Made by a program: the position numbers and the translations under genes. The notes below the pieces were generated by a model. It did no database searches. It was not told where the DNA came from and saw only the letters and a list, made by a program, of their open reading frames with translations. DNA of 64,000 nt from Anaerococcus marasmi (lineage in GTDB: Bacteria; Bacillota; Clostridia; Tissierellales; Peptoniphilaceae): the NCBI RefSeq assembly GCF_900290195.1, contig NZ_OLMF01000004.1:1832943-1896942 (forward strand), in the 5' to 3' direction. This document shows, one piece after another, positions 588 to 20,666 of the stretch (position 1 is its first letter; each line of letters begins with the position of its first letter).

Positions 588-616
588 TAATAAGAAGAAA
601 AAGAAAGTGAGTCTAA

Positions 617-2359
617 ATGAAACAATTTGATATCAAGGAAATTGACTTAACTAAATACTTATTTTTCACAGGAAAGGGAGGAGTCGGTAAGACTTCTACT
701 GCCTGTGCTAGCGCAATAAGCCTAGCTGATGAGGGTAATGAAGTCCTATTAATTAGTACCGACCCTGCCTCAAACCTTCAAGATGTCTTTGAAACTGAGC
801 TTGATAATAAGGGTGTGAGGATAGAAGGAGTGCCAGGTCTTACCGTTATAAACCTAGATCCTATAGAAGCTGCTAATGAATATAAGGAAAGCGTAGTAGG
901 CCCTTATAGAGGGAAGTTACCTAAGAGTGTAATAGAAAATATGGAAGAGCAATTATCTGGATCTTGTACTGTTGAGATAGCTGCCTTTAATGAATTTTCT
1001 AAGTTTATAACTGATGCTGACCTAAAGGACAAATATGATTATATAATATTTGATACTGCACCAACAGGACATACCCTAAGGATGCTCCAACTACCTTCTG
1101 CTTGGACGAGCTTTATCAGCGAATCCACCCACGGAGCTTCATGTCTAGGTCAATTATCAGGTCTAGAAGATGAGAAAGAAACTTACAAACTCGCTGTGGA
1201 TACCCTAGCTGATGGGAGTCTAACAAGCCTAGTATTAGTTACAAGAGCTGAGGAGACTCCTCTTCTTGAAGCAAATAGGGCCTCAGCTGAACTAGCAGAA
1301 TTAGATATTAACAATCAAATCCTTATTATAAATGGCCTATTAGGTTCCTACGATGATGAAGTGTCAGAAGCTTTTTATAAAAAGCAAAAAGAAGCTCTAG
1401 ATAAGATGCCAGAAGCTATCAAGGATCTTGAAAGGTACTTTATCCCACTTAGGGGATACAACTTAAATAGTATAGAAAATTTAAGGTCTCTTCTAATTGA
1501 GGATAAGGAAAACACTAGTGATGTAGATCTTGATATAAATGAAAGCACAAGTCTAAAAGATATTATAGATGACTTATACAAGAATGAGAAAAAAGTTATC
1601 TTTACCATGGGAAAGGGTGGTGTAGGAAAGACTACAATGGCATCTGCTATAGCCAAGGGACTTACAGCTAAGGGAGAGAAGGTCCATCTAACTACAACAG
1701 ACCCAGCCAACCATTTGACTGGTATGATTCGCGAAGATGACTTGTTAACTATAAGCCATATAGATGAAGAAGAGGAGCTTAGAAAATACCAAGAAGAAGT
1801 TCTAGAAAATGCTAGAAAAACCATGTCTGATGAAGACTTAGAGTATATAAAAGAAGACTTAAGATCACCATGTACCCAAGAGATTGCTGTATTTAGAGCC
1901 TTTGCGGATGTGGTTGATAGGGCGGATGATGAGATTGTTGTAATTGATACAGCTCCAACAGGCCATACACTTCTGCTCCTAGATTCTACAGAATCCTATA
2001 ATACAGAGATAGAAAAAAACCAAGGTAATGTTCCAGAATCAGCAAAGAAACTTCTCCCTAGACTAAAAAATAGTGATGAAACAGAAGTCCTAATTGTAAC
2101 CCTTGCTGAGCCTACTCCCTTCTATGAGTCTGTAAGACTTGAAGAAGACCTAAAAAGAGCGGGGATTTATAGTAAGTGGTGGATTATAAATTCATCTATA
2201 GCTAAGACTGGCTCAACTAACAAGACCCTACAAGCTAAAGCTAATAGTGAGATAGAATGGATAAATAAGGTTGATGATCGTACAGATGGAAAGTTCATAA
2301 TAATCCCATGGTCAAGTGATGAGATCAAGGGATCTAAGCTAGATAAATTAATTAAGTAG
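617..2359 (+). CDS. arsA: ArsA arsenite-transporting ATPase (two nucleotide-binding halves)
   Basis: A 580-residue tandem ATPase of the ArsA/GET3 family that powers As(III) efflux. Each half has the deviant P-loop GKGGVGKT (about residues 19-26 and 332-339) and a D-T-A-P-T-G-H-T signal-transduction motif. The three metalloid-binding cysteines of the family are present: Cys117 (SCTVEIA), Cys176 (SCLGQL) and Cys419 (PCTQEIA). Length matches the E. coli plasmid R773 protein. It sits between arsD and arsC and should couple to Acr3 in the membrane, since no arsB is present. Confidence 0.95.
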   Translation: MKQFDIKEIDLTKYLFFTGKGGVGKTSTACASAISLADEGNEVLLISTDPASNLQDVFETELDNKGVRIEGVPGLTVINLDPIEAANEYKESVVGPYRGKLPKSVIENMEEQLSGSCTVEIAAFNEFSKFITDADLKDKYDYIIFDTAPTGHTLRMLQLPSAWTSFISESTHGASCLGQLSGLEDEKETYKLAVDTLADGSLTSLVLVTRAEETPLLEANRASAELAELDINNQILIINGLLGSYDDEVSEAFYKKQKEALDKMPEAIKDLERYFIPLRGYNLNSIENLRSLLIEDKENTSDVDLDINESTSLKDIIDDLYKNEKKVIFTMGKGGVGKTTMASAIAKGLTAKGEKVHLTTTDPANHLTGMIREDDLLTISHIDEEEELRKYQEEVLENARKTMSDEDLEYIKEDLRSPCTQEIAVFRAFADVVDRADDEIVVIDTAPTGHTLLLLDSTESYNTEIEKNQGNVPESAKKLLPRLKNSDETEVLIVTLAEPTPFYESVRLEEDLKRAGIYSKWWIINSSIAKTGSTNKTLQAKANSEIEWINKVDDRTDGKFIIIPWSSDEIKGSKLDKLIK

Positions 2360-2365
2360 GTAGAT

Positions 2366-2782
2366 ATGACAGAAAAAACAAAAGTTGCCTTTATATGCGT
2401 TCACAATTCTTGCAGGTCTCAGATAGCTGAGGCCCTTGGCAAGAAATTTGCTGGAGATAAGATAGATTTTTACTCTGCAGGAACTGAGCTAGTACCTCAG
2501 ATAAACCAAGATGCAGTAAGACTTATTAAAGAAATACATGGGATAGATATGGAAGAAAGCCACTATTCCAAGCTTATAGATGACCTACCAGTGGTCGATT
2601 ATGTAATCTCTATGGGTTGCAATGTAGTATGCCCATTCCTTCCTTTCAAGCACAAAAAGTATGACTGGGGGATAGGAGATCCTACTGGCAAGTCTGATGA
2701 AGAGTTTGTCAAGGTAATAGAAGAAATCGAAGGGAAGTTAAAGGACTTAATCCGAGAGATAGATGAGGAGCTAGATAGATGA
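2366..2782 (+). CDS. arsC: Arsenate reductase, thioredoxin-coupled (LMW-phosphatase fold)
   Basis: A 138-residue protein that reduces arsenate to arsenite for export. The CX5R phosphatase loop is CVHNSCR at residues 11-17, and the redox pair lies in MGCNVVCP (Cys85, Cys89). This marks the thioredoxin-dependent class rather than the glutaredoxin class. It begins 6 bp after arsA and overlaps acr3 by 4 bp (ATGA), so the two are translationally coupled. Closely related protein-tyrosine phosphatases lack the downstream cysteine pair, and the operon makes arsenate the likely substrate. Confidence 0.92.
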   Translation: MTEKTKVAFICVHNSCRSQIAEALGKKFAGDKIDFYSAGTELVPQINQDAVRLIKEIHGIDMEESHYSKLIDDLPVVDYVISMGCNVVCPFLPFKHKKYDWGIGDPTGKSDEEFVKVIEEIEGKLKDLIREIDEELDR

Positions 2783-3819
2783 AAAAACAAGAAGATATAA
2801 GCTTTTTTGAAAAAAATCTTACACTTTGGGTTTTAATATGCATGGCTATAGGTGTTTTAATTGGACGCTTTATACCTGCTATTCCAGAGACTCTGGGAGA
2901 GTTTGAGTTTTATAATGTATCTATTCCAACAACCATACTTTTATGGATCATGATATATCCAATGATGCTAAAGATTGATTTTAATAGTATAAAAAATATC
3001 AGAAACAATCCTAAGGGTTTATTTATAACATGGATTGCCAACTGGGTTATCAAACCCTTTACTATGTACCTAATAGCTAGATTATTTTTCTTTGGGATTT
3101 ACAAAAATATCATTAGTGGAGATCTAGCATCAGAGTACCTAGCAGGAGCAGTTTTGTTAGGGGCAGCTCCATGTACAGCCATGGTTTTTGTATGGAGTAA
3201 GCTAACAAGAGGGGATAGTGCCTATACCCTAGTTCAAGTGGCGAGCAATGACCTTATTATACTAATTGCCTATATACCAATAGTAAGCTTTTTACTAAAG
3301 AGGGGCAATATCAATATACCTTGGGGGACCCTACTTTTATCAATCATACTATTTATAGTAGTTCCTCTTATATTTAGTATCTTAACAAGAAGGCGTGTGA
3401 TAAAAAATAAGGGTGAAGATTACTTAAATAATGAATTTATCCCATCATTTGATAAATACACTACGGTTGGGTTATTGCTAACTTTGATAATTATATTCTC
3501 ATTCCAAGGAATGAAAATTATCGACCAACCTCTAAATATTGCTCTTATAGCTCTACCACTTATACTTCAAACCTTCTTTATATTTGCTATAACCTTTGGA
3601 ATGGCATACCTTGCAAAATTGCCATATTCTATAGCTGCTCCATGCGGAATGATAGGAGCATCTAACTTCTTCGAACTAGCTGTAGCTGTTGCTATCTCGC
3701 TATTTGGCCTATCATCTGGTGCAACCCTTGCAACAGTAGTAGGAGTTTTGGTAGAAGTACCGGTAATGCTGCTCTTAGTAAGAATAGCAAACTCAATGGA
3801 AGATAAGTTTCACAGATAA
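2779..3819 (+). CDS. acr3: ACR3-family arsenite efflux permease
   Basis: A 346-residue polytopic membrane protein with about ten hydrophobic segments, the size and topology of Acr3. The conserved As(III)-handling cysteine lies in GAAPCTAMVFVWS (Cys132), and GASNFFELAVA near residue 295 is the second family signature. It is the last gene of the ars operon, overlapping arsC by 4 bp. With ArsA present, the pump can run as a plain antiporter or as an ATP-driven ArsA-Acr3 pair. A weak hairpin with a T-tract follows. Confidence 0.94.
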   Translation: MKKQEDISFFEKNLTLWVLICMAIGVLIGRFIPAIPETLGEFEFYNVSIPTTILLWIMIYPMMLKIDFNSIKNIRNNPKGLFITWIANWVIKPFTMYLIARLFFFGIYKNIISGDLASEYLAGAVLLGAAPCTAMVFVWSKLTRGDSAYTLVQVASNDLIILIAYIPIVSFLLKRGNINIPWGTLLLSIILFIVVPLIFSILTRRRVIKNKGEDYLNNEFIPSFDKYTTVGLLLTLIIIFSFQGMKIIDQPLNIALIALPLILQTFFIFAITFGMAYLAKLPYSIAAPCGMIGASNFFELAVAVAISLFGLSSGATLATVVGVLVEVPVMLLLVRIANSMEDKFHR

Positions 3820-4808: not shown

Positions 4809-4864
4809 TATGATGGGTTGGCTATAAATGTGATATGTTACATGTTATAACTTTAGGAGTTAGG

Positions 4865-6238
4865 ATGAGTATTTTACTTAAAAATGCAAATATTATAGAA
4901 GAAGGAAACTTTATCCTTCGTGATATTTATATAGATGATGAGAAGATAAGTGAGATTAGTGATGAGATTAATCGAAGTGCCGATAGGGTGATTGATTGTA
5001 AGAAGCTTCTTACTTTGCCAGGTGGGGTGGATGTCCATACGCATTTGTCCCTGGATTTGGGCAAGTTTATTTCGATTGATGATTTCTATACGGGAACTAG
5101 GGCGGCAAGCTTTGGCGGGACTACTTCTATTGTAGATCATATAGCCTTTGGTCCGAGAGATTCTCTCGTGGGAGAGATGATTAAGAAGTATCACAAGATG
5201 GCTGATGGAGCTGCTGTGATTGATTATTCTTTCCATGGGGCTATACAGAAGGCAAGTGATGCCATTCTTGATGAGATGGAAGAGCTTTTTGGTCAAGGGA
5301 TTGTTTCTACTAAGATCTATACGACTTATGGAGGCAAGCTCGATGATGGAAAGATGCTTAAGGTTCTTAGAAAGGCTAAGGAGACTGGAACGGTAGTTTG
5401 TGTTCATTGTGAAAACGATGGCATGATAGCTGAGCTTAGGAAAGAGGCGGAAGAGGCTAAGAATTTCGCTCCGATTTTTCACGCCAAGACTAGACCTAGC
5501 GAAGCAGAAGCAGAAGCTATTAATAGGCTTATTTATTTGAGCGAGCTTGCAGGTTTCCCTAAGCTTTATATAGTCCACACTTCTTCAAAGTTAGGTCTTG
5601 AAGAGATTAGAAATGCGAGAAAACGTGGAGTGAAGAACCTCTACTGTGAGACTTGTACCCAGTATTTGACCTATACGGACAAGAAGTATGAGGAAGGCGG
5701 CCCAAGCGAAGGAGTCAAGTACATTTGTGCTCCTCCTCTTAGGAAAGATACGGATGTAGAAGCCTTGTGGGAGGGAGTAGCTGATGGGACTGTTGATGTT
5801 ATAGCAACTGATCACTGCCCTTTCTATTACGAAAGCGAGAAGCTTCCTTACAAGGATGATTTTCTAAATGCTCCAGGAGGGATTCCAGGAATCGAGGAGA
5901 GGATGGAAGTTGTACTTACAGAGGGAATCCGTAGGGGAATTAGTCCTGGAAGGCTAGTCGACTTACTTTGTACAAATCCTAGCAAGATTTTCGGTCTTTC
6001 TTATAAGAAAGGAAGTATCGAAGTAGGTAAGGATGCAGATCTTGTTGTATTTGATGAGAAGACTTACACGATTAGCCAGGAAAATAGGCATTCTGCTTGC
6101 GATTATACGACCTATGAGGGCTTTGAGTCTGACTATAAGGTAAAGCTTGTTATAGCAAGGGGTCAAGTGATTTTGGAAGATGATAAGAACTACGGCGAGA
6201 AGGGCCGAGGGAAATTTATAGATAGAAAGTTTATTTAG
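4865..6238 (+). CDS. Dihydropyrimidinase/D-hydantoinase-type amidohydrolase
   Basis: A 457-residue cyclic amidohydrolase that opens hydantoin- or dihydropyrimidine-type rings. The metal site reads DVHTHLSLD (His58, His60), then a Lys in STKIYTTY (Lys150, the usual carboxylated lysine), His in CVHCEND, His in YIVHTSS, and Asp in ATDHCPF. The ATG at 4865 is chosen because TAGGAG precedes it; an upstream in-frame ATG has no ribosome site. It starts the operon and ends 7 bp before the xanthine dehydrogenase gene, a pairing typical of selenium-dependent purine catabolism clusters. The exact substrate is unknown. Confidence 0.9.
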   Translation: MSILLKNANIIEEGNFILRDIYIDDEKISEISDEINRSADRVIDCKKLLTLPGGVDVHTHLSLDLGKFISIDDFYTGTRAASFGGTTSIVDHIAFGPRDSLVGEMIKKYHKMADGAAVIDYSFHGAIQKASDAILDEMEELFGQGIVSTKIYTTYGGKLDDGKMLKVLRKAKETGTVVCVHCENDGMIAELRKEAEEAKNFAPIFHAKTRPSEAEAEAINRLIYLSELAGFPKLYIVHTSSKLGLEEIRNARKRGVKNLYCETCTQYLTYTDKKYEEGGPSEGVKYICAPPLRKDTDVEALWEGVADGTVDVIATDHCPFYYESEKLPYKDDFLNAPGGIPGIEERMEVVLTEGIRRGISPGRLVDLLCTNPSKIFGLSYKKGSIEVGKDADLVVFDEKTYTISQENRHSACDYTTYEGFESDYKVKLVIARGQVILEDDKNYGEKGRGKFIDRKFI

Positions 6239-6245
6239 GTGAATT

Positions 6246-8879
6246 ATGACAAATATATTGGTAGGAGATAGGATTAAGGATACTGATCCTATAATTGTTA
6301 AGATAAATGGCAAAAGATACGAGACCTATGAGGATAAGACTCTTCTTAGGTTCTTGCGTGATGACTTACATATTACATCAGTGAAGGACGGTTGTTCCCA
6401 AGGTGCTTGCGGAACTTGTACTGTCCTTGTTGGAGATAGCAAGAAACCTTCTTGTACCCAGAAGCTTTCTAAGCTTAAGGATGAGGAAATCCTTACCATA
6501 GAGGGTCTCACAGAACTTGAGAAGAAGGCCTTTGTCCATGCTTTCTCTAAGGCTGGAGCGGTCCAATGTGGTTTTTGTACACCAGGAATGGTGATGAGCG
6601 GGGCTGCTATCATTAGAAAGAATCCAAATCCTAGCGAGGATGAGATTAAGGCAGGCATCAAGCAAAATATCTGTAGATGTACAGGTTATGTCAAAATCAT
6701 CGAAGGAATCAAGTTTGCTTCTGAAATCATAAATGGAAATATTGAAATTACTAGTGACGAAAAGGACAGGGTCAAGGTTGGAGATGAATTTATAAGAATC
6801 GATGCCCACGATAAGGTCCTAGGTATAGGCGAATATGTCGATGATATGATCTTTGATGATATGAAGGTAGGATCTGCTATTAGAAGCAAGTTCCCAAGAG
6901 CCAAGGTCTTAAAGATCGATACGACTAAGGCGGAGGCCCTTCCTGGAGTAATAGGAGTCCTAACTGCCAAAGATGTGCCAAACAACAAGGTAGGCCATAT
7001 CTTCCAAGATTGGGATGTCTTTATTGAAGAGGGGGATATCACAAGATATGAAGGAGATGCACTTTGTCTTGTGGTTGCAGAAAATGATAAGGTCCTTGCT
7101 GAGGCTAAAAAATTAGTTGAAATCGAATACGAAGAGCTAGAGCCAATTTCTTCAATCGAAGAAGCGGAAGATCCAGAAGCTCCTTTCATCCACCCAACTG
7201 GCAATCTCTGCCAAGAAAGACACGTGAGCCGTGGCAATGCGGAAGAAGCTTTCAAGAAATGTAAATATATAGTAGAAGAAACTTACACGACTCCTTTTAC
7301 CGAGCATGCTTTTCTTGAGCCAGAATGTGCTATCGCGGAGCCAATGGGTGATGGGGTAAAGATTTATACCACAGACCAATCTGTCTATGATACTAGAAAA
7401 GAGACCCTTATTATGTTTGGCTGGGAAGATCAGCCAGAAAGAGTTGTGGTAGAAAATAAGCTAATTGGAGGAGCTTTTGGGGGCAAGGAAGATGTATCTT
7501 GCCAGCACATTGCAGCTCTTGCAGCTTACAAGTTCCAAGAAAGGGTCAAGATTAAGTTTAGCCGTGACGAATCCTTGAAGTTCCATCCGAAAAGACACCC
7601 AATGGTTGGGACTTTCAAGCTAGGCTGTGACGAAGAGGGCAATTTCCTAGCTATGAAGGCTACGATCAAGATGGACACAGGAGCCTACGCTTCTCTCTGT
7701 GGACCAGTTTTAGAGCGAGCTTGTACCCACTCTGTAGGACCTTACCATTACGAGAATACCGAAATCGACGGCTATGGATATTATACGAACAATCCTCCAG
7801 CAGGAGCCTTCAGAGGCTTTGGAGTTTGCCAATCGAACTTTGCCTTCGAGAGCAATATCAATCTCTTGGCAGAAAAGGTGGGCATTTCTCCTTGGGAAAT
7901 AAGATACAAAAATGCCATTAGACCTGGCGAGGTCCTTCCTAATGGGCAGATCGCAGACTCCTCTACTGCCCTTGTCGAAACTCTAGAGGCGGCTAAGGAA
8001 ATCTTTGAAGAAAACGAAGACAGGGCAGGGATTGCCTGCGCTATGAAAAACGCCGGAGTCGGTGTAGGCCTTCCTGATAAGGGTAGGGCAAAGATTGTCG
8101 TTGAAGATGGATTGGCGAGAGTATATTGTGCGGCAAGTGATTTGGGCCAAGGAGCGCAAACTGTCTTTAAGCAAATGGTCCTAGATATATTAGAACTTCG
8201 TCCAGATCAAGTTAGGATAATCCATCCAAACTCAGCCAACTCACCAGATTCCGGTACATCATCAGGATCTCGTCAGACATTGATCTCTGGTGAAGCCATA
8301 AAGAAAGTTTCTGAAAAGCTTAAGAAGGACTTAGATGAGGCCTCTGATATAAGTGACCTTAATGGCAAGGAATATTTCCACGAATATTTCGATCCTACAG
8401 ATCCACTGGGATCTGAAAAGGAAAATCCAGTAAGCCACGTCGCTTACGGTTTTTCTACGAATGTGGTAATATTAAATGATGACGGGACTGTTAGAAAAGT
8501 CTTTGCTGCAACCGATGCCGGCAAGGTCATAAATCCTAAGGCTATCGAAGGTCAGCTTGAGGGAGGAATAGTAATGGGTCTAGGCTACGCCCTTACAGAA
8601 AACTTCAAGCTAGATAAATCCAAGGTCAAGGCCAAATATGGAACACTTGGCCTTTGGAGAGCGCCAATGATTCCAGAAATAGAGACTGTCTTTGTAAGTA
8701 AGCCAGACGATCGCTTGCTAGATAGGGCCTTTGGTGCCAAGGGAGTAGGAGAGATTGCGACAATTCCGATTGCTCCAGCAGCCCAAGGAGCCTACTACAA
8801 GCTTGACGGAATCCTAAGACGTGATTTTCCAATGGCTGATACGGCTTATAGCAAACCAAGGAAGAAATTTGATGACTAA
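6246..8879 (+). CDS. xdh: Selenium-dependent-type xanthine dehydrogenase, Fe-S and Mo domains fused, no FAD domain
   Basis: An 877-residue molybdenum hydroxylase. The N-terminus is a plant-type ferredoxin (Cys50, 55, 58, 70) followed by the second [2Fe-2S] domain (GFCTPG Cys108/111 and CRC Cys143/145). From about residue 180 it is the Mo-pterin domain, ending with the conserved GVGEIA glutamate. No FAD/CO-dehydrogenase flavoprotein domain or gene is present, so the electron acceptor is open. The yqeC, mocA-like, yqeB and xdhC genes follow directly, the set known from the orphan-selD molybdenum hydroxylase trait. A labile Se ligand is therefore expected; it is not Sec-encoded. Confidence 0.9.
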   Translation: MTNILVGDRIKDTDPIIVKINGKRYETYEDKTLLRFLRDDLHITSVKDGCSQGACGTCTVLVGDSKKPSCTQKLSKLKDEEILTIEGLTELEKKAFVHAFSKAGAVQCGFCTPGMVMSGAAIIRKNPNPSEDEIKAGIKQNICRCTGYVKIIEGIKFASEIINGNIEITSDEKDRVKVGDEFIRIDAHDKVLGIGEYVDDMIFDDMKVGSAIRSKFPRAKVLKIDTTKAEALPGVIGVLTAKDVPNNKVGHIFQDWDVFIEEGDITRYEGDALCLVVAENDKVLAEAKKLVEIEYEELEPISSIEEAEDPEAPFIHPTGNLCQERHVSRGNAEEAFKKCKYIVEETYTTPFTEHAFLEPECAIAEPMGDGVKIYTTDQSVYDTRKETLIMFGWEDQPERVVVENKLIGGAFGGKEDVSCQHIAALAAYKFQERVKIKFSRDESLKFHPKRHPMVGTFKLGCDEEGNFLAMKATIKMDTGAYASLCGPVLERACTHSVGPYHYENTEIDGYGYYTNNPPAGAFRGFGVCQSNFAFESNINLLAEKVGISPWEIRYKNAIRPGEVLPNGQIADSSTALVETLEAAKEIFEENEDRAGIACAMKNAGVGVGLPDKGRAKIVVEDGLARVYCAASDLGQGAQTVFKQMVLDILELRPDQVRIIHPNSANSPDSGTSSGSRQTLISGEAIKKVSEKLKKDLDEASDISDLNGKEYFHEYFDPTDPLGSEKENPVSHVAYGFSTNVVILNDDGTVRKVFAATDAGKVINPKAIEGQLEGGIVMGLGYALTENFKLDKSKVKAKYGTLGLWRAPMIPEIETVFVSKPDDRLLDRAFGAKGVGEIATIPIAPAAQGAYYKLDGILRRDFPMADTAYSKPRKKFDD

Positions 8880-9573
8880 AATAGAAGAAATATTTGATAT
8901 TCAAAAAAATGATATAATTTCAATAACAGGATCTGGGGGCAAGACGAGTCTTATGACTTATCTTGCCCTTAGCTTGTCAAGAAAGGGCAGGGTCCTTATG
9001 ACGACTTCTACCAAAATCGCCCTGCCTAAAGATCCAAACTACACGACCTATACTTCTTTTGATTCTTATGTAAATGATAGGTCAGAGAGGATAGTATCTT
9101 TGGGAGAGGAAGTTTCTGGCAAGGGGAAGCTAAAGAGTGTGGGATATGATAATCTTAAGGAAGTTCTTGATGATTTTGATTATGTCTTGATAGAAGCAGA
9201 TGGTTGTAGGAATCTTCCCCTTAAGTTTTGGTATGATTACGAGCCTGTAATTTATGATTTTACGACAAAAGCTATAGGGGTTTTGCCTATTAAAATTATA
9301 GGACGTGAGCTTAAGGAAGATTTTACTTATAATTATAAGGGCTTTTCAAAAAATATAGGGACTGGTATCATAGATTCTAAGATGATAAGAAGATTAATCG
9401 CTTATGATAAGGGTTTCTATAAGGGATTTGATGGAGGGAAATATCTTTTCCTAAACCAGGTAGAAAGCGAGAGAGACTTTGCAAATGTCCGTAAGATCAG
9501 GGAGGATTTTGATTTTCCTGATATTAAATTATCCTATGGATCGATTAAGGAGGAAAAGTTTTATGAAAATTAA
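8872..9573 (+). CDS. yqeC: YqeC, selenium-dependent hydroxylase accessory (putative P-loop protein)
   Basis: A 233-residue protein with the P-loop-like stretch ITGSGGKTSLMTYLA near its start (about residues 18-32) and DYVLIEADGCRNLPLK in the middle. This matches the YqeC family that co-occurs with selenium-dependent molybdenum hydroxylases. The start overlaps the xanthine dehydrogenase stop by 8 bp, and the end overlaps the next gene by 11 bp, so the three are translationally coupled. The family role is maturation of the Se/Mo cofactor; the biochemical step is not established. Confidence 0.85.
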   Translation: MTKIEEIFDIQKNDIISITGSGGKTSLMTYLALSLSRKGRVLMTTSTKIALPKDPNYTTYTSFDSYVNDRSERIVSLGEEVSGKGKLKSVGYDNLKEVLDDFDYVLIEADGCRNLPLKFWYDYEPVIYDFTTKAIGVLPIKIIGRELKEDFTYNYKGFSKNIGTGIIDSKMIRRLIAYDKGFYKGFDGGKYLFLNQVESERDFANVRKIREDFDFPDIKLSYGSIKEEKFYEN

Positions 9574-10135
9574 TGCCATATTAATGGCCTCAGGCCTATC
9601 TAAAAGGATGGGAGAGAACAAACTGATGTTAAAATTTAAGGGAAAGAAAATCTACGAGCATACTCTAGATCTCTTGGAGGAAGTAGGATTTGATGAGGTT
9701 ATAGTCGCCACTTCCTACGAAGAAATCCTAGAAGATGCAAGGTCTAGGGACTTTGTGGCTATTTGTAATACTGATAATGAGATCGGCAAATCTTCATCAA
9801 TCAAGCTTGGTGTAAGGGAGACCGATGAAGACGCCAACATGATGTTTTTTGTTGCAGACCAGCCCCTTCTTAGGAAAGAAACTTGCGAGAAACTAATCGA
9901 ATCCTTTAAGAAAAAGAATCTTATGACCTATCCTGTAGTAGGGATGAGAAGGGGAGCGCCGGTGATTTTTCCTGCTAGCTACAGGGATAAGCTTTTAAGC
10001 CTTGAAGATGATCAAGGAGGAATGATCTTTGCCAAAGACGGCAAGACTAACAAGGTCCCAATAGAAAACGAAGACGAGCTATTGGATATTGATACCATAG
10101 AAGCCTACGAGAATTTAAGGCGTGACCATGAATAA
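9563..10135 (+). CDS. MocA/YgfJ-like molybdenum cofactor nucleotidyltransferase
   Basis: A 190-residue nucleotidyltransferase (NTP_transf_3). The nucleotide-binding start is ILMASGLSKRMGENKL, and the metal-binding aspartate lies in FFVADQPLL. Members convert molybdopterin to the cytosine- or other dinucleotide form needed by hydroxylases. ATG 9563 is preferred because AAGGAGG lies just upstream within yqeC; the longer upstream frame is shadow. Position between yqeC and yqeB supports a role in finishing the cofactor of the upstream enzyme. CTP versus other NTP preference cannot be read from the sequence. Confidence 0.87.
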   Translation: MKINAILMASGLSKRMGENKLMLKFKGKKIYEHTLDLLEEVGFDEVIVATSYEEILEDARSRDFVAICNTDNEIGKSSSIKLGVRETDEDANMMFFVADQPLLRKETCEKLIESFKKKNLMTYPVVGMRRGAPVIFPASYRDKLLSLEDDQGGMIFAKDGKTNKVPIENEDELLDIDTIEAYENLRRDHE

Positions 10136-10931
10136 GAATCTCGTAATAGTAAGGGGCGGAGGAGATGTCGCAACAGGGACTATCCAGAAGCTTAAGAGAG
10201 TTGGCTTTGACGTCTTGGTCCTAGAAATCGAAAGACCAACCTGTATCAGAAGAAATGTCGCAGTAGCTCAGGCGATCTTTGAGGGAGAAATAAAGATCGA
10301 AGATATAAGGGCAGTTTACTCTAAAGATAGGTCTCAAATGGAAAAAGCCTTTGCAGAAGATAAGATTGCTGTAACAATTGACCCTAAGGGAAGATTCATA
10401 GAAGAGATGGAGCCTATCTGTGTGATAGATGGGATCTTAGCTAAGAAAAACCTCGGGACTAACAAGGACATGGCTCCTATAACCATAGGACTTGGACCTG
10501 GTTTTTCCGCTGGTGAAGACGTGGACTTGGTCATAGAAACCAATAGGGGCCACGATTTGGGCAGACTAATATTTGAAGGACCTGCCGCCCTAAACACCGG
10601 TAATCCTGGCAATATCAACGGATTTACGACAGAAAGAATCCTAAGATCTACAGGAGATGGTAGGCTTCATATCCTAAAAGATTTAGGCTCAGTTGTAAAG
10701 AAGGGAGAAGCGGTTGCGATAGTCTCCGGTAAGGAAATCTACGCGGGCCTTGACGGAATGGTTCGTGGTATGATCAATGAAGGGATTGAAGTGACTAAGG
10801 GGATGAAGGTCGGAGATGTCGACCCTAGAGTGATTCCTCGTAATGTGGCTACTATTTCTGATAAGGCTAGGCTAATCGGCGGAGGGAGTCTTGAGGGACT
10901 TCTCATAATGAAAAGAAGGAAGGGTCTATGA
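10128..10931 (+). CDS. yqeB: YqeB, selenium-dependent molybdenum hydroxylase system protein (EF2563 family)
   Basis: A 267-residue protein beginning NLVIVRGGGDVATGTIQKL, the Rossmann-like start of the YqeB/EF2563 family. This family is found almost only with selD-dependent molybdenum hydroxylases. It overlaps the mocA-like gene by 8 bp and xdhC by 4 bp. The function is unproven; the genomic association suggests a role in inserting Se into the Mo site. A GTG six bases upstream is an alternative start. Confidence 0.88.
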   Translation: MNKNLVIVRGGGDVATGTIQKLKRVGFDVLVLEIERPTCIRRNVAVAQAIFEGEIKIEDIRAVYSKDRSQMEKAFAEDKIAVTIDPKGRFIEEMEPICVIDGILAKKNLGTNKDMAPITIGLGPGFSAGEDVDLVIETNRGHDLGRLIFEGPAALNTGNPGNINGFTTERILRSTGDGRLHILKDLGSVVKKGEAVAIVSGKEIYAGLDGMVRGMINEGIEVTKGMKVGDVDPRVIPRNVATISDKARLIGGGSLEGLLIMKRRKGL

Positions 10932-11725
10932 AGGCAGATATTTTAGAGAAAATTTATGAAGAAAACAGAAAGGGGAAGGATGCAGCCCTGGTATTTTTGA
11001 TAGAAAACAAGGGCTCTACTCCAGGAGAAGATAACTCCCTAATGGCTGTCACATCAGATGGAAAGTCCTTCGGTACAATTGGCGGAGGCAAAATTGAGGC
11101 TGATGTCATAAGAAGGTGTATGGAAGGCTTTGCTAAGGGAGAATCCTTCGAGTTTGACTACAACCTATCCAAAAATGGAGAGCTTAAGATGAGCTGCGGG
11201 GGAAATTCGAGAGGATTTGTAAAATACTTCAAGGCAGCTAATCGCCTTATGATTTTTGGCGCAGGCCACATTTCCCAGAAGCTAGCGAGGGTTGCTACAA
11301 AGACTAACTTTGAAGTTACAGTAATAGATGATAGAAGTGAATTTAGGCAAAATCCTGACTTTAGTGAAATCAAAGACTATATCGATGATCCAATAGAAGA
11401 TGCAGTAGAAAAAATCGGCTTTGATAAGGATAAGACCTATATAGTCCTATGTAACAGAGGTCACGCCTACGATTCTAAGACCCTTAGGAAAATAATAGAT
11501 AAAGACTTCCACTACCTGGGTATGATTGCCTCAAAGGCCAAGGTTATAAGAGTATTCAATGAACTTGAAGAAGAGGGCTTTAAGAGAGAAGACTTGGATA
11601 AAATCTACACTCCTATAGGACTTGACCTAGACAATGGTTCTGTAGAGGAGATTGCAATTTCAATTATGGCAGAGATTTTGATGGTTAAAAATAAAAAGAC
11701 TGGTGAAATCCAGAAACTCCATTAA
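10928..11725 (+). CDS. xdhC: XdhC/CoxI-family molybdenum cofactor insertion protein
   Basis: A 265-residue protein. The N-terminal XdhC/CoxI domain includes KGSTPGEDNSLMAV and GTIGGGKIEADVI; the C-terminal Rossmann domain starts LMIFGAGHISQKLARVA. Members bind molybdenum cofactor, protect it, promote sulfuration and deliver it to xanthine dehydrogenase. It overlaps yqeB by 4 bp (ATGA). In this Se-type cluster it may handle a selenido rather than sulfido ligand; that is inference. Confidence 0.9.
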   Translation: MKADILEKIYEENRKGKDAALVFLIENKGSTPGEDNSLMAVTSDGKSFGTIGGGKIEADVIRRCMEGFAKGESFEFDYNLSKNGELKMSCGGNSRGFVKYFKAANRLMIFGAGHISQKLARVATKTNFEVTVIDDRSEFRQNPDFSEIKDYIDDPIEDAVEKIGFDKDKTYIVLCNRGHAYDSKTLRKIIDKDFHYLGMIASKAKVIRVFNELEEEGFKREDLDKIYTPIGLDLDNGSVEEIAISIMAEILMVKNKKTGEIQKLH

Positions 11726-14639: not shown

Positions 14640-15653
14640 TTATTTTACGATTATCTTGTAAGATCTTTTCCTTTTAACCTGACCTATTTGATAGATTTCC
14701 AAATTATTTTCCCTAAAGTCTGTGATTATCTTATCAGCTTCTTCTGGACTTACCGAAATGCACAAGCCACCTGATGTCTGTGGGTCAAAGAGGACTTCCT
14801 CCATGGCAAAATCATCTATCATAAATTCTACATCGCCTTCGAGGTAGTTTCTGTTATTTTGTCCACCAGAAGTATAGAGAAACTCAGCGGCAAGCTTTTT
14901 AGCAGGGGATAGGACTGGGACCTTGTCGCTTTCAAGGATGATAGTAAAGTCATCTCCTGCCATTTCTGAAAGATGACCCAAAAGACCGAATCCTGTGATA
15001 TCGGTCGCTGCGTGGATTTGATATTTGACGAAGATATCTCTGGCGTATTTGTTAAGAGTTGCCATCTGCCTTGTGCAAGCTTCAAAGTCCTCTTCATTTA
15101 CGAGCCCCTGTGCAAAGTTTGCAGTAACGAGCCCTGTGCCGATTTTTTTCGTAAGAAGGATCACGTCCCCATCTTTTGGCGTATTATTTTCCCAAATTTC
15201 CTTTTTTTTGACCTTGCCTGTGACAGAAAGGCCGTACTTGATGGTCTTATCATGAATCGAATGGCCACCGGTTAGGCTTGCCTTGGCCTCACTGACCTTA
15301 TCATTACCTCCACGGAGGATTTCTTTGAGGATAGCGAAGTCCTCTTCTAGGGGAAATGTCACGATATTAAGGGCAGAGATGACCTCTCCTCCCATAGCGT
15401 AGACATCGCTTAGGGCGTTGGCGGCAGCGATTTGACCAAAAAGATAGGGATCTTCGACCATAGTAGGGAAGAAATCCAGGGTCTGGATCACGCAAGTTTC
15501 GCCATCGACGTCTATAATTGCAGCATCGTCCTTCTTGTCAAATCCTACTAGGACATCGTGCCTCTTGTAGGGGGTAATATCCTTTAATAATTTATCCAAA
15601 TTACCTGCGGCAATCTTGGCATTGCAACCGCCGCATACTTCTAAGTTCTTCAT
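14640..15653 (-). CDS. selD: Selenide, water dikinase (selenophosphate synthase)
   Basis: A 337-residue ATP-dependent enzyme that makes selenophosphate from selenide. The active site is CGGCNAKIAAG, with Cys10 and Lys13 in the positions of E. coli Cys17 and Lys20; it is a Cys form with no in-frame UGA. GFDKKDDAAIIDVD and the LTGGHSIHD loop are typical. It heads the minus-strand operon with a good AGGAGG. No selA, selB or tRNA-Sec is in view, so here it probably serves the molybdenum hydroxylase cofactor (orphan-selD trait); their absence genome-wide cannot be judged. Confidence 0.95.
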   Translation of the reverse strand: MKNLEVCGGCNAKIAAGNLDKLLKDITPYKRHDVLVGFDKKDDAAIIDVDGETCVIQTLDFFPTMVEDPYLFGQIAAANALSDVYAMGGEVISALNIVTFPLEEDFAILKEILRGGNDKVSEAKASLTGGHSIHDKTIKYGLSVTGKVKKKEIWENNTPKDGDVILLTKKIGTGLVTANFAQGLVNEEDFEACTRQMATLNKYARDIFVKYQIHAATDITGFGLLGHLSEMAGDDFTIILESDKVPVLSPAKKLAAEFLYTSGGQNNRNYLEGDVEFMIDDFAMEEVLFDPQTSGGLCISVSPEEADKIITDFRENNLEIYQIGQVKRKRSYKIIVK

Positions 15654-15829: not shown

Positions 15830-15858
15830 TTGACAAGGAAAGTAATATATTAGATAAT
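15830..15858 (+). promoter_or_regulatory. Sigma-A-type promoter for the second desulfurase operon
   Basis: TTGACA at 15830-15835 and GATAAT at 15853-15858 are separated by 17 bp. The leader to the ATG at 15896 is about 30 nt. Confidence 0.75.
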
Positions 15859-15895: not shown

Positions 15896-17059
15896 ATGAT
15901 TTACTTAGACAATGCCGCAACGACTTTGGTCAAGCCTGACCTGGTCAAGGAAAGACTGATAGAAAAATTTGATAAGATAGGAAATCCTTCGAGAGGCTCC
16001 AATGAAATCTCCCTAGATACAGGAAGGATGGTCCTTGCTACTAGAATTAAGCTTGCCAGGCTTTTTAATATCAAAGATCCAAGAAGACTTGCCTTTTGCT
16101 CAAATGCCACGGAGGCTTTAAACATCGCTATTTCTTCATTTATAGGAAGAGATGATCATGTAATAACGTCTCTTATAGAGCACAATTCCGTCCTCCGTCC
16201 TCTCTATCTTAAGGAAAAGGAAGGAGCTGAGCTTTCCTTTGTAGGGCTTAAGGATGAGAAGGAAGGGGTACTCAATTATGAAATGATGGAAGGGCTTGTA
16301 AGAGAAAACACTAAGGCTTTAGTTATAAGCCATGCTTCAAATGTTACTGGAAATATTACCGATCTTTCGAAAGTTTCTGACTTTTGCAAAAAGCATGAAC
16401 TCTTACTTATAGTAGATGCTGCTCAAAGTGCTGGACTTATCGATATAGATGTTGAAAAATACGGGATAGACGTCCTTTGCTTTACAGGCCACAAGGGCCT
16501 ATATGGCTTAACGGGTACTGGTGGAATTTACATAAGAGATGGACTAAATCCGCATGCCCTAAAGGTCGGAGGAAGTGGGATCAATTCATTTGACAAAGAC
16601 CATCCTCTTACCATGCCAGAAGTCCTAGAGGCAGGTACTATCAATGCCTACGGCATTCTTTCCTTAAATGCAAGCCTTGATTTTATAAATCAAATTGGCC
16701 TAGCCAATATTAGAAAAAAGGAAAAAGACCTACTTATATATTTTGAGGATAGGATAAAGCAAATACCGACTCTTACAATTTATGGAGCCAAGGATTTGGA
16801 TGAGAGAGTTGGAATACTTGCGATTAATTCCACCAAAATCCCCTCTAAGGACCTAGCCCAAATCCTTGCCGAAAAATACGACATAGCCACTAGGGCTGGA
16901 GCCCATTGCGCCCCTCTGTGCCACAAGGCTTTAAGGACAGAAGAAGATGGACTCGTACGCTTCTCCCTTTCCTACTTCACAAAAAAGGAAGAGATCGATA
17001 AGACAATTCGTGCCCTCAAGGAAATACTAGGAGATGATTATGATAGTAATAACATTTGA
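15896..17059 (+). CDS. Cysteine desulfurase family protein, double-cubane-linked copy
   Basis: A 387-residue class V aminotransferase. PLP lysine is Lys200 (FTGHKGLYGL), and the catalytic cysteine is Cys338 (GAHCAPLCHK). It is clearly paralogous to 12647-13783 but diverged across the length. It opens an operon with DUF3343, a YjiL-like activator and a YjiM-like double-cubane protein, all overlapping. That context suggests it supplies S or Se for a redox cofactor distinct from, or in addition to, the molybdenum enzyme. A general Fe-S role is an alternative, although no scaffold gene is adjacent. Confidence 0.87.
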   Translation: MIYLDNAATTLVKPDLVKERLIEKFDKIGNPSRGSNEISLDTGRMVLATRIKLARLFNIKDPRRLAFCSNATEALNIAISSFIGRDDHVITSLIEHNSVLRPLYLKEKEGAELSFVGLKDEKEGVLNYEMMEGLVRENTKALVISHASNVTGNITDLSKVSDFCKKHELLLIVDAAQSAGLIDIDVEKYGIDVLCFTGHKGLYGLTGTGGIYIRDGLNPHALKVGGSGINSFDKDHPLTMPEVLEAGTINAYGILSLNASLDFINQIGLANIRKKEKDLLIYFEDRIKQIPTLTIYGAKDLDERVGILAINSTKIPSKDLAQILAEKYDIATRAGAHCAPLCHKALRTEEDGLVRFSLSYFTKKEEIDKTIRALKEILGDDYDSNNI

Positions 17060-17264
17060 TACGACTACAGATGCCATGATGATGGAGGCATTCGCTAAGG
17101 AAAATAAACTTGCTGGAAAGATTATCCCCCTACCAAATGAAATATCCGCAGGCTGTGGCCTTGCCTTTAAGCTAGAGGAGAAAGATTTAGAAAAAATTAC
17201 AAAGACACTAGAGGAAAATTCAATCTCCTATGAGAAAATCCATAAGCTTGGAGTAGACAAATGA
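17040..17264 (+). CDS. DUF3343 protein, double-cubane-linked copy
   Basis: A 74-residue protein with the core KIIPLPNEISAGCGLAFKL; the conserved Cys is residue 39. The ATG at 17040 is preferred because TAGGAG sits six bases before it; an in-frame ATG at 17034 is too close to that site. It overlaps the upstream desulfurase by 20 bp and the downstream activator by 4 bp. It repeats the desulfurase-DUF3343 pairing of the selD operon, which implies that the two proteins act as a unit. Confidence 0.83.
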   Translation: MIVITFDTTTDAMMMEAFAKENKLAGKIIPLPNEISAGCGLAFKLEEKDLEKITKTLEENSISYEKIHKLGVDK

Positions 17265-18028
17265 ACTATGTAGGAATCGATATAGGATCAACTGCGAGCA
17301 AGGTATCTGTAATAGGAGATAGGAAGATGAACTTCGTAACCCCTACTGGCTGGTCATCTAAAGAAGTCGCAAATGATATCAAAAACAGGCTTCTCGAAAA
17401 AGGAGTCGACGTAGATAGCGATAAGACCAGGGTGACAGCGACAGGATATGGTAGGATAAGCGTCGATTTCGCTGACTTTGTAATAACAGAAATCACCTGC
17501 CACGCAAGAGGAGCGAGGGCCCTATCTGGCCTTGATGATCTTTCAGTCATAGATGTAGGAGGCCAGGATACCAAGGCTATCCTCATAGAAGATAAACTAG
17601 TATCTGAATTTCAAATGAATGATAAGTGCTCAGCGGGTACGGGCAAATTTATCGAAGTCATGGCCAATAAGCTCGGCCTAACAATTAATGAACTCTTTGA
17701 CCTAGCCCAGAAAGGAGAGGCCATCTCCATATCGTCAATGTGTACGGTCTTTGCAGAAACAGAAATCACCTCCTATGTGGGAGAAGGAAGAAAGAAAGAG
17801 GACATAGCGGCAGGAATCGTAAACTCAGTCGCTCAGAAAGTAAGCCAGATGTATAACAAGATTGGAGATAGTGACAAAGTAATCCTTACAGGCGGCTTAA
17901 GCAATGTATCTTACTTTGCCGAAATCTTATCCAAAACAATCGGATGCCAAGTTATAAATCTAAAGAACGGACAATTTGCAGGCTCAATCGGAGGAGCCTA
18001 TCTATCGAAGGAGAAGAAAAAAAGATGA
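17261..18028 (+). CDS. yjiL: YjiL-like ATPase activator (BcrA/HgdC family)
   Basis: A 255-residue ASKHA-fold ATPase, the length of E. coli YjiL. Phosphate-binding motifs are GIDIGSTASKVSV at residue 4 and VIDVGGQDTKAI in the middle. The bridging [4Fe-4S] ligands are in KCSAGTGKF and SSMCTVFAETE. Family members hydrolyse ATP to push low-potential electrons into 2-hydroxyacyl-CoA dehydratases or double-cubane proteins. It overlaps its partner gene at ATGA (18025-18028), so the two are made together. Confidence 0.9.
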   Translation: MNYVGIDIGSTASKVSVIGDRKMNFVTPTGWSSKEVANDIKNRLLEKGVDVDSDKTRVTATGYGRISVDFADFVITEITCHARGARALSGLDDLSVIDVGGQDTKAILIEDKLVSEFQMNDKCSAGTGKFIEVMANKLGLTINELFDLAQKGEAISISSMCTVFAETEITSYVGEGRKKEDIAAGIVNSVAQKVSQMYNKIGDSDKVILTGGLSNVSYFAEILSKTIGCQVINLKNGQFAGSIGGAYLSKEKKKR

Positions 18029-19176
18029 CAGATCTAATTAAAGACTTACCAGAAATATTTGAAGAGTTCGCCGATGCAAGGAAAAATGCCTTCCTAAGTG
18101 TAAAGGACCTAAAGGATAAAAACATTCCCCTAGTAGGAGCCTATTGTACATATTTTCCTGAAGAAGTAGCCTGGGCTGCGGGAGCAAGCACGGTTGGCCT
18201 ATGCTCAACAAGCGATGAAACCATGGCGGAAGCAGAAAAGGACCTCCCAGCCAATCTCTGTCCCCTTATCAAATCATCCTACGGCTTTGCCAAAACCGAC
18301 AAATGCCCATTTTTCTATTTCTCAGATGTCATAGTAGGAGAGACAACCTGCGATGGGAAGAAGAAAATGTACGAATTGATGGATGAAATAAAGCCTGTCT
18401 ACATGATGAACCTACCAAATAGGCAAGACGAAAAGGCCAAAAGATACTGGGCGGGAGAAGTAGAAGAATTCAAAGAATATATGGAAGAAAAATTTGAAAC
18501 AGAAATTACAGAAGAAAAGTTAAGAAAAGCAGTAAAGCTTGGAAATGACATAAGAGATGCCCAAAAAAACATAGCCCAAACTATGAAACTTGACCCAACA
18601 CCAATGTCAGGCCTTGACCTCTTTCATGTAACTTATGGTAGCCAATTTAATATGGACAAGGAGAAGATTCCAGGAGAGATCAACGCCCTTGCCAAAAGAA
18701 TAATCGACGAATACGATCCAGATGAGAGAGAGAAAAAGCCAAGGATAGTAGTAACAGGCTGCCCTATGGGAGGAGCTACAGAAAAGGTAATTAAGGCTAT
18801 AGAAGATAACGGCGGCGTTATAGTAAGTTTTGAAAACTGCTCCGGTGAGAAAAACTTCGATAGAAATGTAGATCTCGACCAAGAGGACATAGTAAAGGCC
18901 CTAGCAGATAGATATATAGACATAGGTTGCTCTGTAATGAGCCCAGATACCAATAGATTTGAGCTTCTAGGAAGACTAATCGACGAATACCAGGCAGACG
19001 GAGTAGTAGAAATGGATCTTGTAGCCTGCCATACCTACAATGTAGAAAGAGAAAAAATCAAAAGATTCGTCCAAGAAGAGAAAAAAATCCCATACACCTA
19101 CGTAGAAACCGACTTCGGCCAAGCAGACATAGGCCAACTAAACACAAGAATGGCCGCCTTTATTGAGATGCTTTAG
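18025..19176 (+). CDS. yjiM: YjiM-like double-cubane cluster protein (HgdB family)
   Basis: A 383-residue protein, exactly the length of E. coli YjiM. It belongs to the HgdB/BcrC-like fold. Cysteines stand in VGAYCTYFPEE, VGLCSTS, NLCPLIKSSYG, KCPFFYF, ETTCDGKKKMYE, VTGCPMGG and IGCSVMSP, enough for a double-cubane [8Fe-9S]-type cluster. Single-subunit homologues with a dedicated ATPase are called double-cubane cluster proteins and reduce small molecules at very low potential. The ATG overlaps the activator stop; a longer upstream frame has no ribosome site. The substrate is unknown, and the desulfurase/DUF3343 context is distinctive. Confidence 0.87.
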   Translation: MTDLIKDLPEIFEEFADARKNAFLSVKDLKDKNIPLVGAYCTYFPEEVAWAAGASTVGLCSTSDETMAEAEKDLPANLCPLIKSSYGFAKTDKCPFFYFSDVIVGETTCDGKKKMYELMDEIKPVYMMNLPNRQDEKAKRYWAGEVEEFKEYMEEKFETEITEEKLRKAVKLGNDIRDAQKNIAQTMKLDPTPMSGLDLFHVTYGSQFNMDKEKIPGEINALAKRIIDEYDPDEREKKPRIVVTGCPMGGATEKVIKAIEDNGGVIVSFENCSGEKNFDRNVDLDQEDIVKALADRYIDIGCSVMSPDTNRFELLGRLIDEYQADGVVEMDLVACHTYNVEREKIKRFVQEEKKIPYTYVETDFGQADIGQLNTRMAAFIEML

Positions 19177-19258: not shown

Positions 19259-19588
19259 TTGATAATAAATTATTCTAATAGAAAACTGATGAAAGAATGC
19301 ACTAATATTAAGATAGCGAGAAAGCATTATGGTGAGAAAATAGCTTTAAGACTTCTTAAGGCAATAAATTTTATAGAATCTTCATCTAATTTGAAAGCGT
19401 TGATTAACAACAGAATTTATAATTTTCATAAACTCTCAGGTGATAGAAAAAATCAGTATGCTATAGATATAGGTAGTAGGAGAGATGGCTACCGACTAAT
19501 ACTTGAGTTTGATCAAGATGATGTATTTGTAAAAGCTGTTGAGATTGACGAACTTACAATTAAAGAAATGGGGAATCATTATGAGTAA
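19259..19588 (+). CDS. HigB/RelE-type toxin
   Basis: A 109-residue basic protein of the HigB (plasmid killer) fold, a ribosome-dependent mRNA interferase. Recognisable parts are ARKHYGEKIALRLL, NFHKLSGDRKNQYAIDIG and DGYRLILEF. Translation appears to start at TTG 19259, eight bases after GGAG; no ATG lies near the N-terminus. It overlaps the antitoxin gene by 8 bp, toxin first, as in other HigBA loci. It lies 82 bp after yjiM with its own promoter. Activity is inferred from family only. Confidence 0.82.
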   Translation: MIINYSNRKLMKECTNIKIARKHYGEKIALRLLKAINFIESSSNLKALINNRIYNFHKLSGDRKNQYAIDIGSRRDGYRLILEFDQDDVFVKAVEIDELTIKEMGNHYE

Positions 19589-20666
19589 CTTTACAGAATA
19601 TAAAAATTTAATAGCTTTTCATCCGGGATCTTATGTAGAAGATATAGTTGCTGATTTGAATATAAGTCAAAAAGAATTCGCTAGTCGTCTTGGTGTCTCT
19701 GCAAAAACTATTAGTACTTTGATAAATGCTGAATCTAATTTATCTACTGATTTAGCCTTGAAATTGGAGAAGCTAACAGGAATAGATTATCAAACTTGGA
19801 TAAATCTTCAAAACAACTACGACAAAAAAAAGTTAGAAATTGAAAACGAAAAAATAAAAGATGAAGATATAGTTCTTGATAAGATTGATTTTAAATATTT
19901 TAAGAAAAATGGATTAGTAGAAGATAGGAAGTATAAAAGATCTGAGAAAAAAGACAGCTTATACTCTACCTTATACATTAGTAGTTTGACTTATCTATCA
20001 GCTTTCAATCCATTAGTAAGCTATAGAAATAACGATATTGATAATTTGAAGTCGGTTGTAAACTCTAACATAATGCTTTGTCTTGCTGAAAACATTGCTA
20101 GAAATATGTCGCAAAAAAAGCTTGATATAAGTAAGTTAAATGATTACTTGACTGAAATAAAGGCTATGAATTTAGAAAACTATGAAGACTTTATGCCAAG
20201 ACTTAAACAATTACTCATGGAATGTGGAATTGTGCTTGTTACTTTGCCGCACTTATCAGGATCAGGACTTAATGGAGCATGCAAGATATTTAAAAATGGT
20301 TCCGTGTTGCTTTTAATGACTGATAAAAATAAGAGGGCCGATATATTTTGGTTCTCATTAATGCATGAGTTAGGTCATATAATTAATAAAGACTTTTATA
20401 CAGATCTTTATGATATAGAAACCTATAAGAAAAAAGAAAAAATAGCAGATAAGTTTTCTGAAGAATTCTTCTTAAGTGAAAGCGAGTATGAGGAGTTTAA
20501 AATTGCGGGAGATTACTCCTATGGATCTTTAGTCGAATTTGCGAAAAGAAAGTCAATAATGCCAAGTATTTTAATTGGTAGGTTAAAAAATGATAAGCTG
20601 ATAGAACAAAATAAATTAAATGACTTAAACAAATATTATAAATTTTCAATTGATATAAACAAATAA
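19581..20666 (+). CDS. HigA-type antitoxin fused to an ImmA/IrrE-like metallopeptidase
   Basis: A 361-residue protein with an N-terminal XRE helix-turn-helix (about residues 22-70, QKEFASRLGVSAKTISTLIN) typical of HigA. The C-terminal half is a zinc peptidase domain with HELGH at residues 262-266 in FWFSLMHELGHIINKD. The ATG at 19581 lies inside the toxin's end. The HTH should bind the twin operators at 19197-19238. The peptidase could cleave the antitoxin or another repressor on a signal; that is inference from ImmA/IrrE biology. Confidence 0.85.
   Translation: MSNFTEYKNLIAFHPGSYVEDIVADLNISQKEFASRLGVSAKTISTLINAESNLSTDLALKLEKLTGIDYQTWINLQNNYDKKKLEIENEKIKDEDIVLDKIDFKYFKKNGLVEDRKYKRSEKKDSLYSTLYISSLTYLSAFNPLVSYRNNDIDNLKSVVNSNIMLCLAENIARNMSQKKLDISKLNDYLTEIKAMNLENYEDFMPRLKQLLMECGIVLVTLPHLSGSGLNGACKIFKNGSVLLLMTDKNKRADIFWFSLMHELGHIINKDFYTDLYDIETYKKKEKIADKFSEEFFLSESEYEEFKIAGDYSYGSLVEFAKRKSIMPSILIGRLKNDKLIEQNKLNDLNKYYKFSIDINK

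Follow-up and report, generated by a model that had tools for sequence, protein, structure and literature searches.

A four-gene operon of Anaerococcus marasmi, located at positions 15896-19176 on the plus strand of the stretch of DNA analysed here (64,000 nucleotides of contig NZ_OLMF01000004.1; hereafter the window), encodes a cysteine desulfurase, a DUF3343 protein (a putative selenium or sulfur carrier), a YjiL-like ATP-dependent activase and a YjiM-like double-cubane-cluster protein (DCCP). Genome comparison identifies the operon as a recurrent selenium-linked module, with a substrate that is putative: genomes that encode DCCP almost always encode the selenophosphate synthetase SelD as well. 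We put at about even the chance that the operon is a selenium-supply module, in which DCCP and its activase form an ATP-driven reductase that supplies selenium to SelD together with the lyase-like enzyme and the carrier.

An earlier interpretation of the DNA (the sequence-only reading) had proposed an undescribed selenium/sulfur redox system, to be checked by a survey of DUF3343 genes beside YjiM-like genes and their correlation with selD, and to be given up if the gene order was unique to this strain or the distribution of DCCP independent of selD. The survey covered a phylum sample of 199 genomes (evenly drawn from the phylum of the window, at least 90% complete) and a class sample of 148 genomes, from a class reached via an Adlercreutzia locus. 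Presence of genes was judged from genome tables; for DCCP, the curated cut-off was applied to match lists that extend below it. In the phylum sample DCCP was found in 66 genomes, DUF3343 in 128 and SelD, also over its cut-off, in 139. Sixty-five genomes had both DCCP and SelD, one had DCCP only, 74 SelD only and 59 neither (Fisher p 5.5e-12), and when each of the 95 families was represented by a single genome, drawn 2000 times, the median p was 1e-5. The class sample repeated this result (67 with both, 1 with DCCP only, 50 with SelD only, 30 with neither; p 8.5e-9). When the samples are pooled, SelD is present in 132/134 genomes with DCCP as compared to 124/213 without it, and DCCP occurs in 2 of the 91 genomes lacking SelD, so that DCCP follows SelD near-obligately rather than being distributed independently of it. 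In a set of 49 genomes selected for DCCP (from 50 of 81 loci, less that of E. coli), one of which (G199) belongs to the class sample too, SelD was found in 47. Among 14 named controls, the genomes matched by DCCP, DUF3343 and SelD (E 1e-60) were the same two, those of E. coli and M. jannaschii.

Physical linkage alone is rejected as the cause of this co-occurrence. A gene for DUF3343, desulfurase, YedF or SelD lies within 6 kb of DCCP in 26 of the 66 DCCP genomes of the phylum sample, and the remaining 40 all possess SelD; members of MtaA-like, LysR or YedE neighbour clusters occur near DCCP in 10 of these unlinked genomes and in none of the other 30. Two matched controls do not track SelD. 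HGD-D homologs scoring below the cut-off, counted in DCCP-less genomes, were found in 32/74 genomes with and 21/59 without SelD in the phylum sample (p 0.38), and in 6/50 and 4/30, respectively, in the class sample (p 1). NifH-type ATPases (E 1e-40) were found in 34/139 SelD-positive and 12/60 SelD-negative genomes of the phylum sample (p 0.58); within these NifH-type genomes DCCP is present in 28 of the 34 with SelD and in none of the 12 without. These controls bear on the explanation that DCCP has an unrelated small molecule as the substrate of its reduction and that its anaerobic hosts also keep selenium use, through shared lifestyle or co-inheritance. In its favour, the molecules that DCCP can reduce in vitro include acetylene, hydrazine and azide, a reactivity whose physiological relevance is called unclear in the available text of PMC11971306, and DCCP correlates with NifH-type ATPases (p 1e-5), which indicates that some lifestyle effect exists. 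We nevertheless consider this explanation unlikely, since the matched controls do not follow SelD, the signal holds with one genome per family and repeats in a second sample, and DCCP is physically linked to SelD, YedF and DUF3343 in both of its clades (see below).

The gene order recurs outside this strain, being found again in three related loci (L005, L006 and L011), and a strain-specific operon is thereby rejected. L005 and L006 show the overlaps of the window operon; in L011 DUF3343 and the activase are 10 bp apart, with no overlap, and the four genes are followed on the same strand by selD-yedF-DUF3343-desulfurase. In four Anaerococcus loci (L007-L010) the order on one strand is DCCP-SelD-YedF-DUF3343-desulfurase, with 9-13 bp between DCCP and SelD. 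The activase precedes DCCP in L007-L009, and a profile search did not find it before DCCP in L010. Such close co-directional placing speaks for DCCP acting in the path that SelD serves. In L151 (4869-6167) DUF3343 is fused in frame to SelD in a protein of 432 amino acids, within the order DCCP-DUF3343-activase-desulfurase-[DUF3343-SelD]-YedF, and this fusion argues that the carrier passes selenium to SelD. In 18 of the 66 DCCP genomes of the phylum sample, DUF3343 and DCCP genes are at most 3 kb apart, against about 0.4 expected, assuming average gene numbers and genome size; together with the order in L005, L006 and L011 this excludes chance. The corresponding number for the class sample is at least 31/68, a lower bound as the distances were obtained from part of the coordinates. 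All neighbour searches spanned up to 6 kb and ended at contig ends.

A DCCP tree of 108 rows showed two deep clades, one of which holds E. coli YjiM and the window protein, while the other is rich in the order DCCP-DUF3343-desulfurase (L111, L115, L116, L121 and L126). This is a quick tree with a midpoint root and a long-branch warning; its rows are 19 of the 80 genome-contig loci, E. coli, the window and those of L085-L161 with at least 400 bits, L001-L003 being excluded as copies of the window. DUF3343 occurs within 400 bp of DCCP in both clades (2 and 17 rows), with at least four changes on the starred branches, and links to SelD and YedF likewise exist in both. In L099, L114 and L126, DCCP paralogs of the two clades adjoin, one by the activase and the other by DUF3343, and these might pair. 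Neighbour clusters around 157 DCCP loci, each named from a single representative, included an MtaA-like corrinoid methyltransferase (18 loci), LysR (12 loci; the representative is a selenium-associated LysR) and YedE (6 loci). A commoner cluster, that of ABC-transporter ATPases (33/157), is likely unspecific.

The same neighbourhoods may be explained by cluster maturation, with a dedicated desulfurase and DUF3343 supplying sulfur to build the [8Fe-9S] cluster of DCCP and selenium being incidental. The tight overlap of the four genes in the window, L005 and L006 and the DCCP-DUF3343-desulfurase order in the second clade are in line with this proposal, which does not predict, however, that DCCP needs SelD. 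Moreover, in 40 of the 66 DCCP genomes none of the genes for DUF3343, desulfurase, YedF and SelD lies within 6 kb of DCCP, and among SelD-positive genomes DUF3343 is only weakly commoner with DCCP (58/65) than without it (58/74; p 0.11). We therefore judge cluster maturation to be improbable, about as much so as shared lifestyle, and retain the selenium-supply module as the preferred reading.

The four operon proteins have unambiguous family assignments, with all profile matches over the cut-off. The desulfurase or selenocysteine-lyase-like enzyme linked to DCCP (P0001, 387 amino acids, 15896-17059) matches TIGR01977 (415.8 bits, cut-off 377) and thus belongs to the EF2568 family; it is a member of the class-V aminotransferases. 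It is followed by the DUF3343 protein (P0002, 76 amino acids with Cys41, 17034-17264; PF11823, 89.3 bits, cut-off 25), the activase (P0003, 255 amino acids, 17261-18028; TIGR00241, 219.0 bits, cut-off 125.4) and DCCP (P0009, 383 amino acids, 18025-19176; NF040772, 506.2 bits, cut-off 350). The description of four genes overlapping end to start proved correct: all are intact on the plus strand, and overlaps occur at the three junctions. Desulfurase and DUF3343 overlap by 26 bp, or by 20 bp if DUF3343 starts at its second ATG (17040); an ATGA is common to the DUF3343 stop and the activase start, and another one (18025-18028) to the activase end and the DCCP start. Position 18025 is likely the DCCP start, the one at 17944 in the list of open reading frames being an over-extension. 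A promoter-like site TTGACA-17-GATAAT (15830-15858, plus strand; 11/12 consensus positions, alone no evidence of function) ends 37 bp before the desulfurase start. Two other labels were rejected, SclA selenocysteine lyase for P0001 and for the second desulfurase of the window, P0005 (NF040779, 324.8 and 275.8 bits, cut-off 525), and (R)-2-hydroxyacyl-CoA dehydratase (HadC/HgdB) for DCCP (NF052456, 104.1 bits, cut-off 700). According to the part of a review that was available (PMC13188914), SclA prefers selenocysteine over cysteine. The nearest relative of the window DCCP is 97% identical.

The operon lies right beside selD, as the sequence-only reading had noted, the divergent selD start being 242 bp away. 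This gene (P0008, Cys form, 14640-15653; TIGR00476, 350 bits, cut-off 125) heads a minus-strand group running from 15653 down to 12647, with yedF (P0007, 14030-14629; TIGR03527, 215 bits, cut-off 110), a second DUF3343 gene (P0006, 13773-14036; PF11823, 43.7 bits, cut-off 25) and a second desulfurase or selenocysteine-lyase-like gene (P0005, 12647-13783; TIGR01977, 341.4 bits, below the cut-off of 377). The two DUF3343 proteins are 47% identical over 49 columns. The desulfurases P0001 and P0005 share 44% identity and fall into separate groups, P0001 with the enzymes of L005, L006 and L011 and P0005 with SelD-linked enzymes; the desulfurase-DUF3343 pair of the operon is thus a dedicated second pair, as had been claimed. 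A plus-strand set (6246-11725) comprises a selenium-dependent xanthine dehydrogenase, yqeC, a mocA-like gene, yqeB and an xdhC-like gene; TIGR03311, TIGR03172 and TIGR03309 match over the cut-off, and the mocA-like and xdhC-like genes score below the cut-off of their models. No match to SelA or SelU was found in the genome of the window (99.7% complete). With SelD, YqeB/YqeC and the selenium-dependent xanthine dehydrogenase it has the selenium-dependent molybdenum hydroxylase trait, and since SelA and SelU have no match, the molybdenum hydroxylase is the recognised selenium use of this genome.

Other parts of the window are mentioned briefly. An amidohydrolase gene (4835-6238) directly precedes the xanthine dehydrogenase and perhaps belongs to the purine/selenium hydroxylase set. 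Before the selenium region, positions 216-3819 hold an arsenic resistance set with ArsD, ArsA, a low-molecular-weight phosphatase-fold protein, which we take to be ArsC-like, and an SBF-family transporter, presumably ACR3-like. The 3' side of the operon (19259-20666) has a toxin-antitoxin-like layout of a 109-amino-acid gene, without Pfam match at E 1e-6, and a helix-turn-helix protein. Rfam and tRNA scans of the 64-kb window gave no matches.

The sole invariant residue of DUF3343 is Cys41 (71/71 aligned rows). A sequence search for relatives of a solved structure found none for this family, and the Pfam name itself reads 'putative'. In the cluster region of DCCP, C41, C60, C79, C109, C272 and C302 are present in 108/108 rows, C94 in 106 and C335 in 107, in both clades. 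No in-frame stops are listed among the over-cut-off DCCP matches of both samples, so that DCCPs do not look like selenocysteine proteins. In SelD-negative loci the DUF3343 motif is GCA (L165, L167, L170), VCS (L168, L171), SCS (L169) or CG (L164, L172); this difference was considered and not used, the loci being too few. The DUF3343-SelD fusion was also aligned with unfused SelD and DUF3343 sequences, an alignment that was discarded as the carrier rows were scattered across SelD. DUF3343 matches in G004, G034, G036, G047, G080, G111, G137 and G161 lie inside frames of 432-463 amino acids, a size that fits candidate DUF3343-desulfurase fusions; G080 and G111 are without SelD.

Alternatively, DCCP itself might be the selenium enzyme, with desulfurase and DUF3343 putting selenium in or on the double-cubane cluster. 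The co-occurrence with SelD in both samples agrees with this, as does the chalcogen flexibility of the cluster family, in which the available text of PMC11971306 mentions a [4Fe-5S] cluster in HAD, with thiouridine-monophosphate desulfidase as a partial relative. The published cluster is [8Fe-9S], however, with no selenium mentioned in that text, a cluster receiving its selenium from the desulfurase and its DUF3343 partner would have no obvious need for SelD, and 40 of the 66 DCCP genomes lack desulfurase or DUF3343 neighbours within 6 kb. We hold this alternative to be doubtful, somewhat more so than cluster maturation.

In the selenium-supply module, the desulfurase, an EF2568-family enzyme that resembles selenocysteine lyases, would take selenium or sulfur from selenocysteine or cysteine as a perselenide or persulfide, and DUF3343 would carry it bound to the one cysteine that is invariant. 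The activase would spend ATP to drive low-potential electrons into DCCP, whose [8Fe-9S] cluster may reduce a selenium compound, either carrier-bound or a small organic or oxidised one, toward selenide, the compound on which SelD acts. The product of SelD would then supply the selenium-dependent molybdenum hydroxylase. We infer both the direction of selenium flow and the reduction of a selenium species by DCCP. As DCCP is optional (65/139 SelD-positive genomes), its role is more likely tied to a given selenium source or condition than to a universal step, and the recurrence of MtaA-like genes beside it suggests that one such source is organic or methylated selenium, consistent with the available part of PMC10418091. 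A more specific idea, to which we give a slim chance, is that DCCPs are reductive deselenases: an exchangeable bridging chalcogen of the [8Fe-9S] cluster would take selenium from organic or carrier-bound selenium and hand it to SelD as selenide, DUF3343 serving as the shuttle.

Several points weigh against the selenium-supply reading. The evidence connecting DCCP and SelD is correlation, not chemistry, and reducing selenite or persulfide has no obvious need for electrons of very low potential. The lifestyle effect indicated by the NifH-type ATPases counts here as well. DCCP is absent from 74/139 SelD-positive genomes of the phylum sample, and of five SelD-positive genomes without SelA (G000, G065, G153, G184 and G190) two have it and three do not, so it is not required for SelA-less selenium use. 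Only 26 of the 66 DCCP genomes have one of the four neighbours within 6 kb. DUF3343 is found in SelD-negative genomes of the phylum sample (12/60) and the class sample (3/31), and a desulfurase lies near DUF3343 in the SelD-negative L165, L167, L168, L170, L171 and L172, which indicates that carrier and lyase can serve sulfur. Finally, DCCP occurs with no SelD match in G166, G378, G211 and G224. In G166 (L137) and G224 (L043) YedF and desulfurase are beside DCCP, and a contig missing from the assembly is possible for these two, hinted at and unproven. That SelD can be missed in assemblies follows from G064 and G177, which have SelA and no SelD match. A sulfur system, handling persulfide or polysulfide with the selD adjacency as a by-product of homologous parts, could account for the desulfurase-DUF3343 pairs of the SelD-negative loci, but DCCP is almost absent from SelD-negative genomes (2/91 in both samples), making it the least probable of the explanations weighed here.

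Among characterised proteins, the closest are DCCP and activase of PDB entries 6eno and 7yyl, whose source we take to be Carboxydothermus hydrogenoformans. Structure 6eno is the best PDB match of the window DCCP (E 1.5e-73), and the activase is matched by 1hux and by its counterpart in the DCCP complex 7yyl (E 7.5e-35). The eight conserved cysteines of the window DCCP align with those of the C. hydrogenoformans protein, whereas C246 does not. The window operon has a desulfurase and DUF3343 in addition and adjoins selD; the C. hydrogenoformans system was compared by its proteins alone. Similar to the window operon, E. coli K-12 yjiM-yjiL-ytiA combines DCCP (YjiM, NF040772 531 bits), activase and DUF3343; the E. 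coli control genome has a PF11823 match, and a DUF3343 profile matches at ytiA. Unlike in the window, the order is DCCP-activase-DUF3343, with no desulfurase or selD annotated beside it in the 18 kb covered. In the available part of PMC9068703, yjiM and yjiL share a LysR-regulator expression table with formate hydrogenlyase and hydrogenase-maturation genes.

A selenium link of such proteins is already provisionally in print, and in this respect the term 'undescribed' of the sequence-only reading does not hold; its selenium/sulfur redox reading is supported in part, by the dedicated pair, the recurrent order and the dependence on selD. In the parts available of Lin et al. 2015 (PMC5322559), STRING connects DUF3343 with the activase and YedF with an HGD subunit, and a table links activase, DUF3343, a selenocysteine lyase family protein, YedF and an HGD subunit in Slackia heliotrinireducens (Shel_25420-25470). 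That organism is named there as having all selenocysteine-decoding genes, unlike the genome of the window with no SelA match. The Enterococcus faecalis genes EF2566-EF2568 likewise bring together YedF, SelD and a TIGR01977 enzyme, with SelD serving the molybdenum hydroxylase trait (Haft and Self 2008, PMC2276186); unlike the window operon, no HGD-type proteins are mentioned with them in the available text. The 2023 study PMC10418091, in its available part, provisionally links a dicubane cluster protein to selenium metabolism and places DCCP in Type I mlp gene clusters. The MtaA-like cluster beside DCCP in 18/157 loci resembles these; no MtaA-like gene was seen next to the window operon (open reading frames at 8-28 kb). 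The 2025 paper PMC11971306 still describes the biological function of DCCP as unknown in the text available. No test of DCCP in selenium metabolism was found in the literature searched, a limited collection of which the top matches were used where there were many. With the selenium link already in print, the operon is a better-supported variant and not a new kind of system. What is added here is a quantified SelD dependence, set against controls in both samples, together with a carrier fused to SelD, a gene order in which DCCP and selD run in the same direction, and the example of a genome with no match to SelA or SelU.

The presence of SelD in 132/134 DCCP genomes and the recurrent links to SelD, YedF and DUF3343 narrow the search for the function of DCCP to selenium metabolism, and make this question directly testable in E. 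coli K-12. The findings concern the route by which selenium reaches SelD from its source, and the question whether trace-element supply is among the tasks of a nitrogenase-like electron system driven by ATP. If DCCPs were reductive deselenases, the archetype of the benzoyl-CoA reductase/hydroxyacyl-CoA dehydratase family would gain its missing physiological function.

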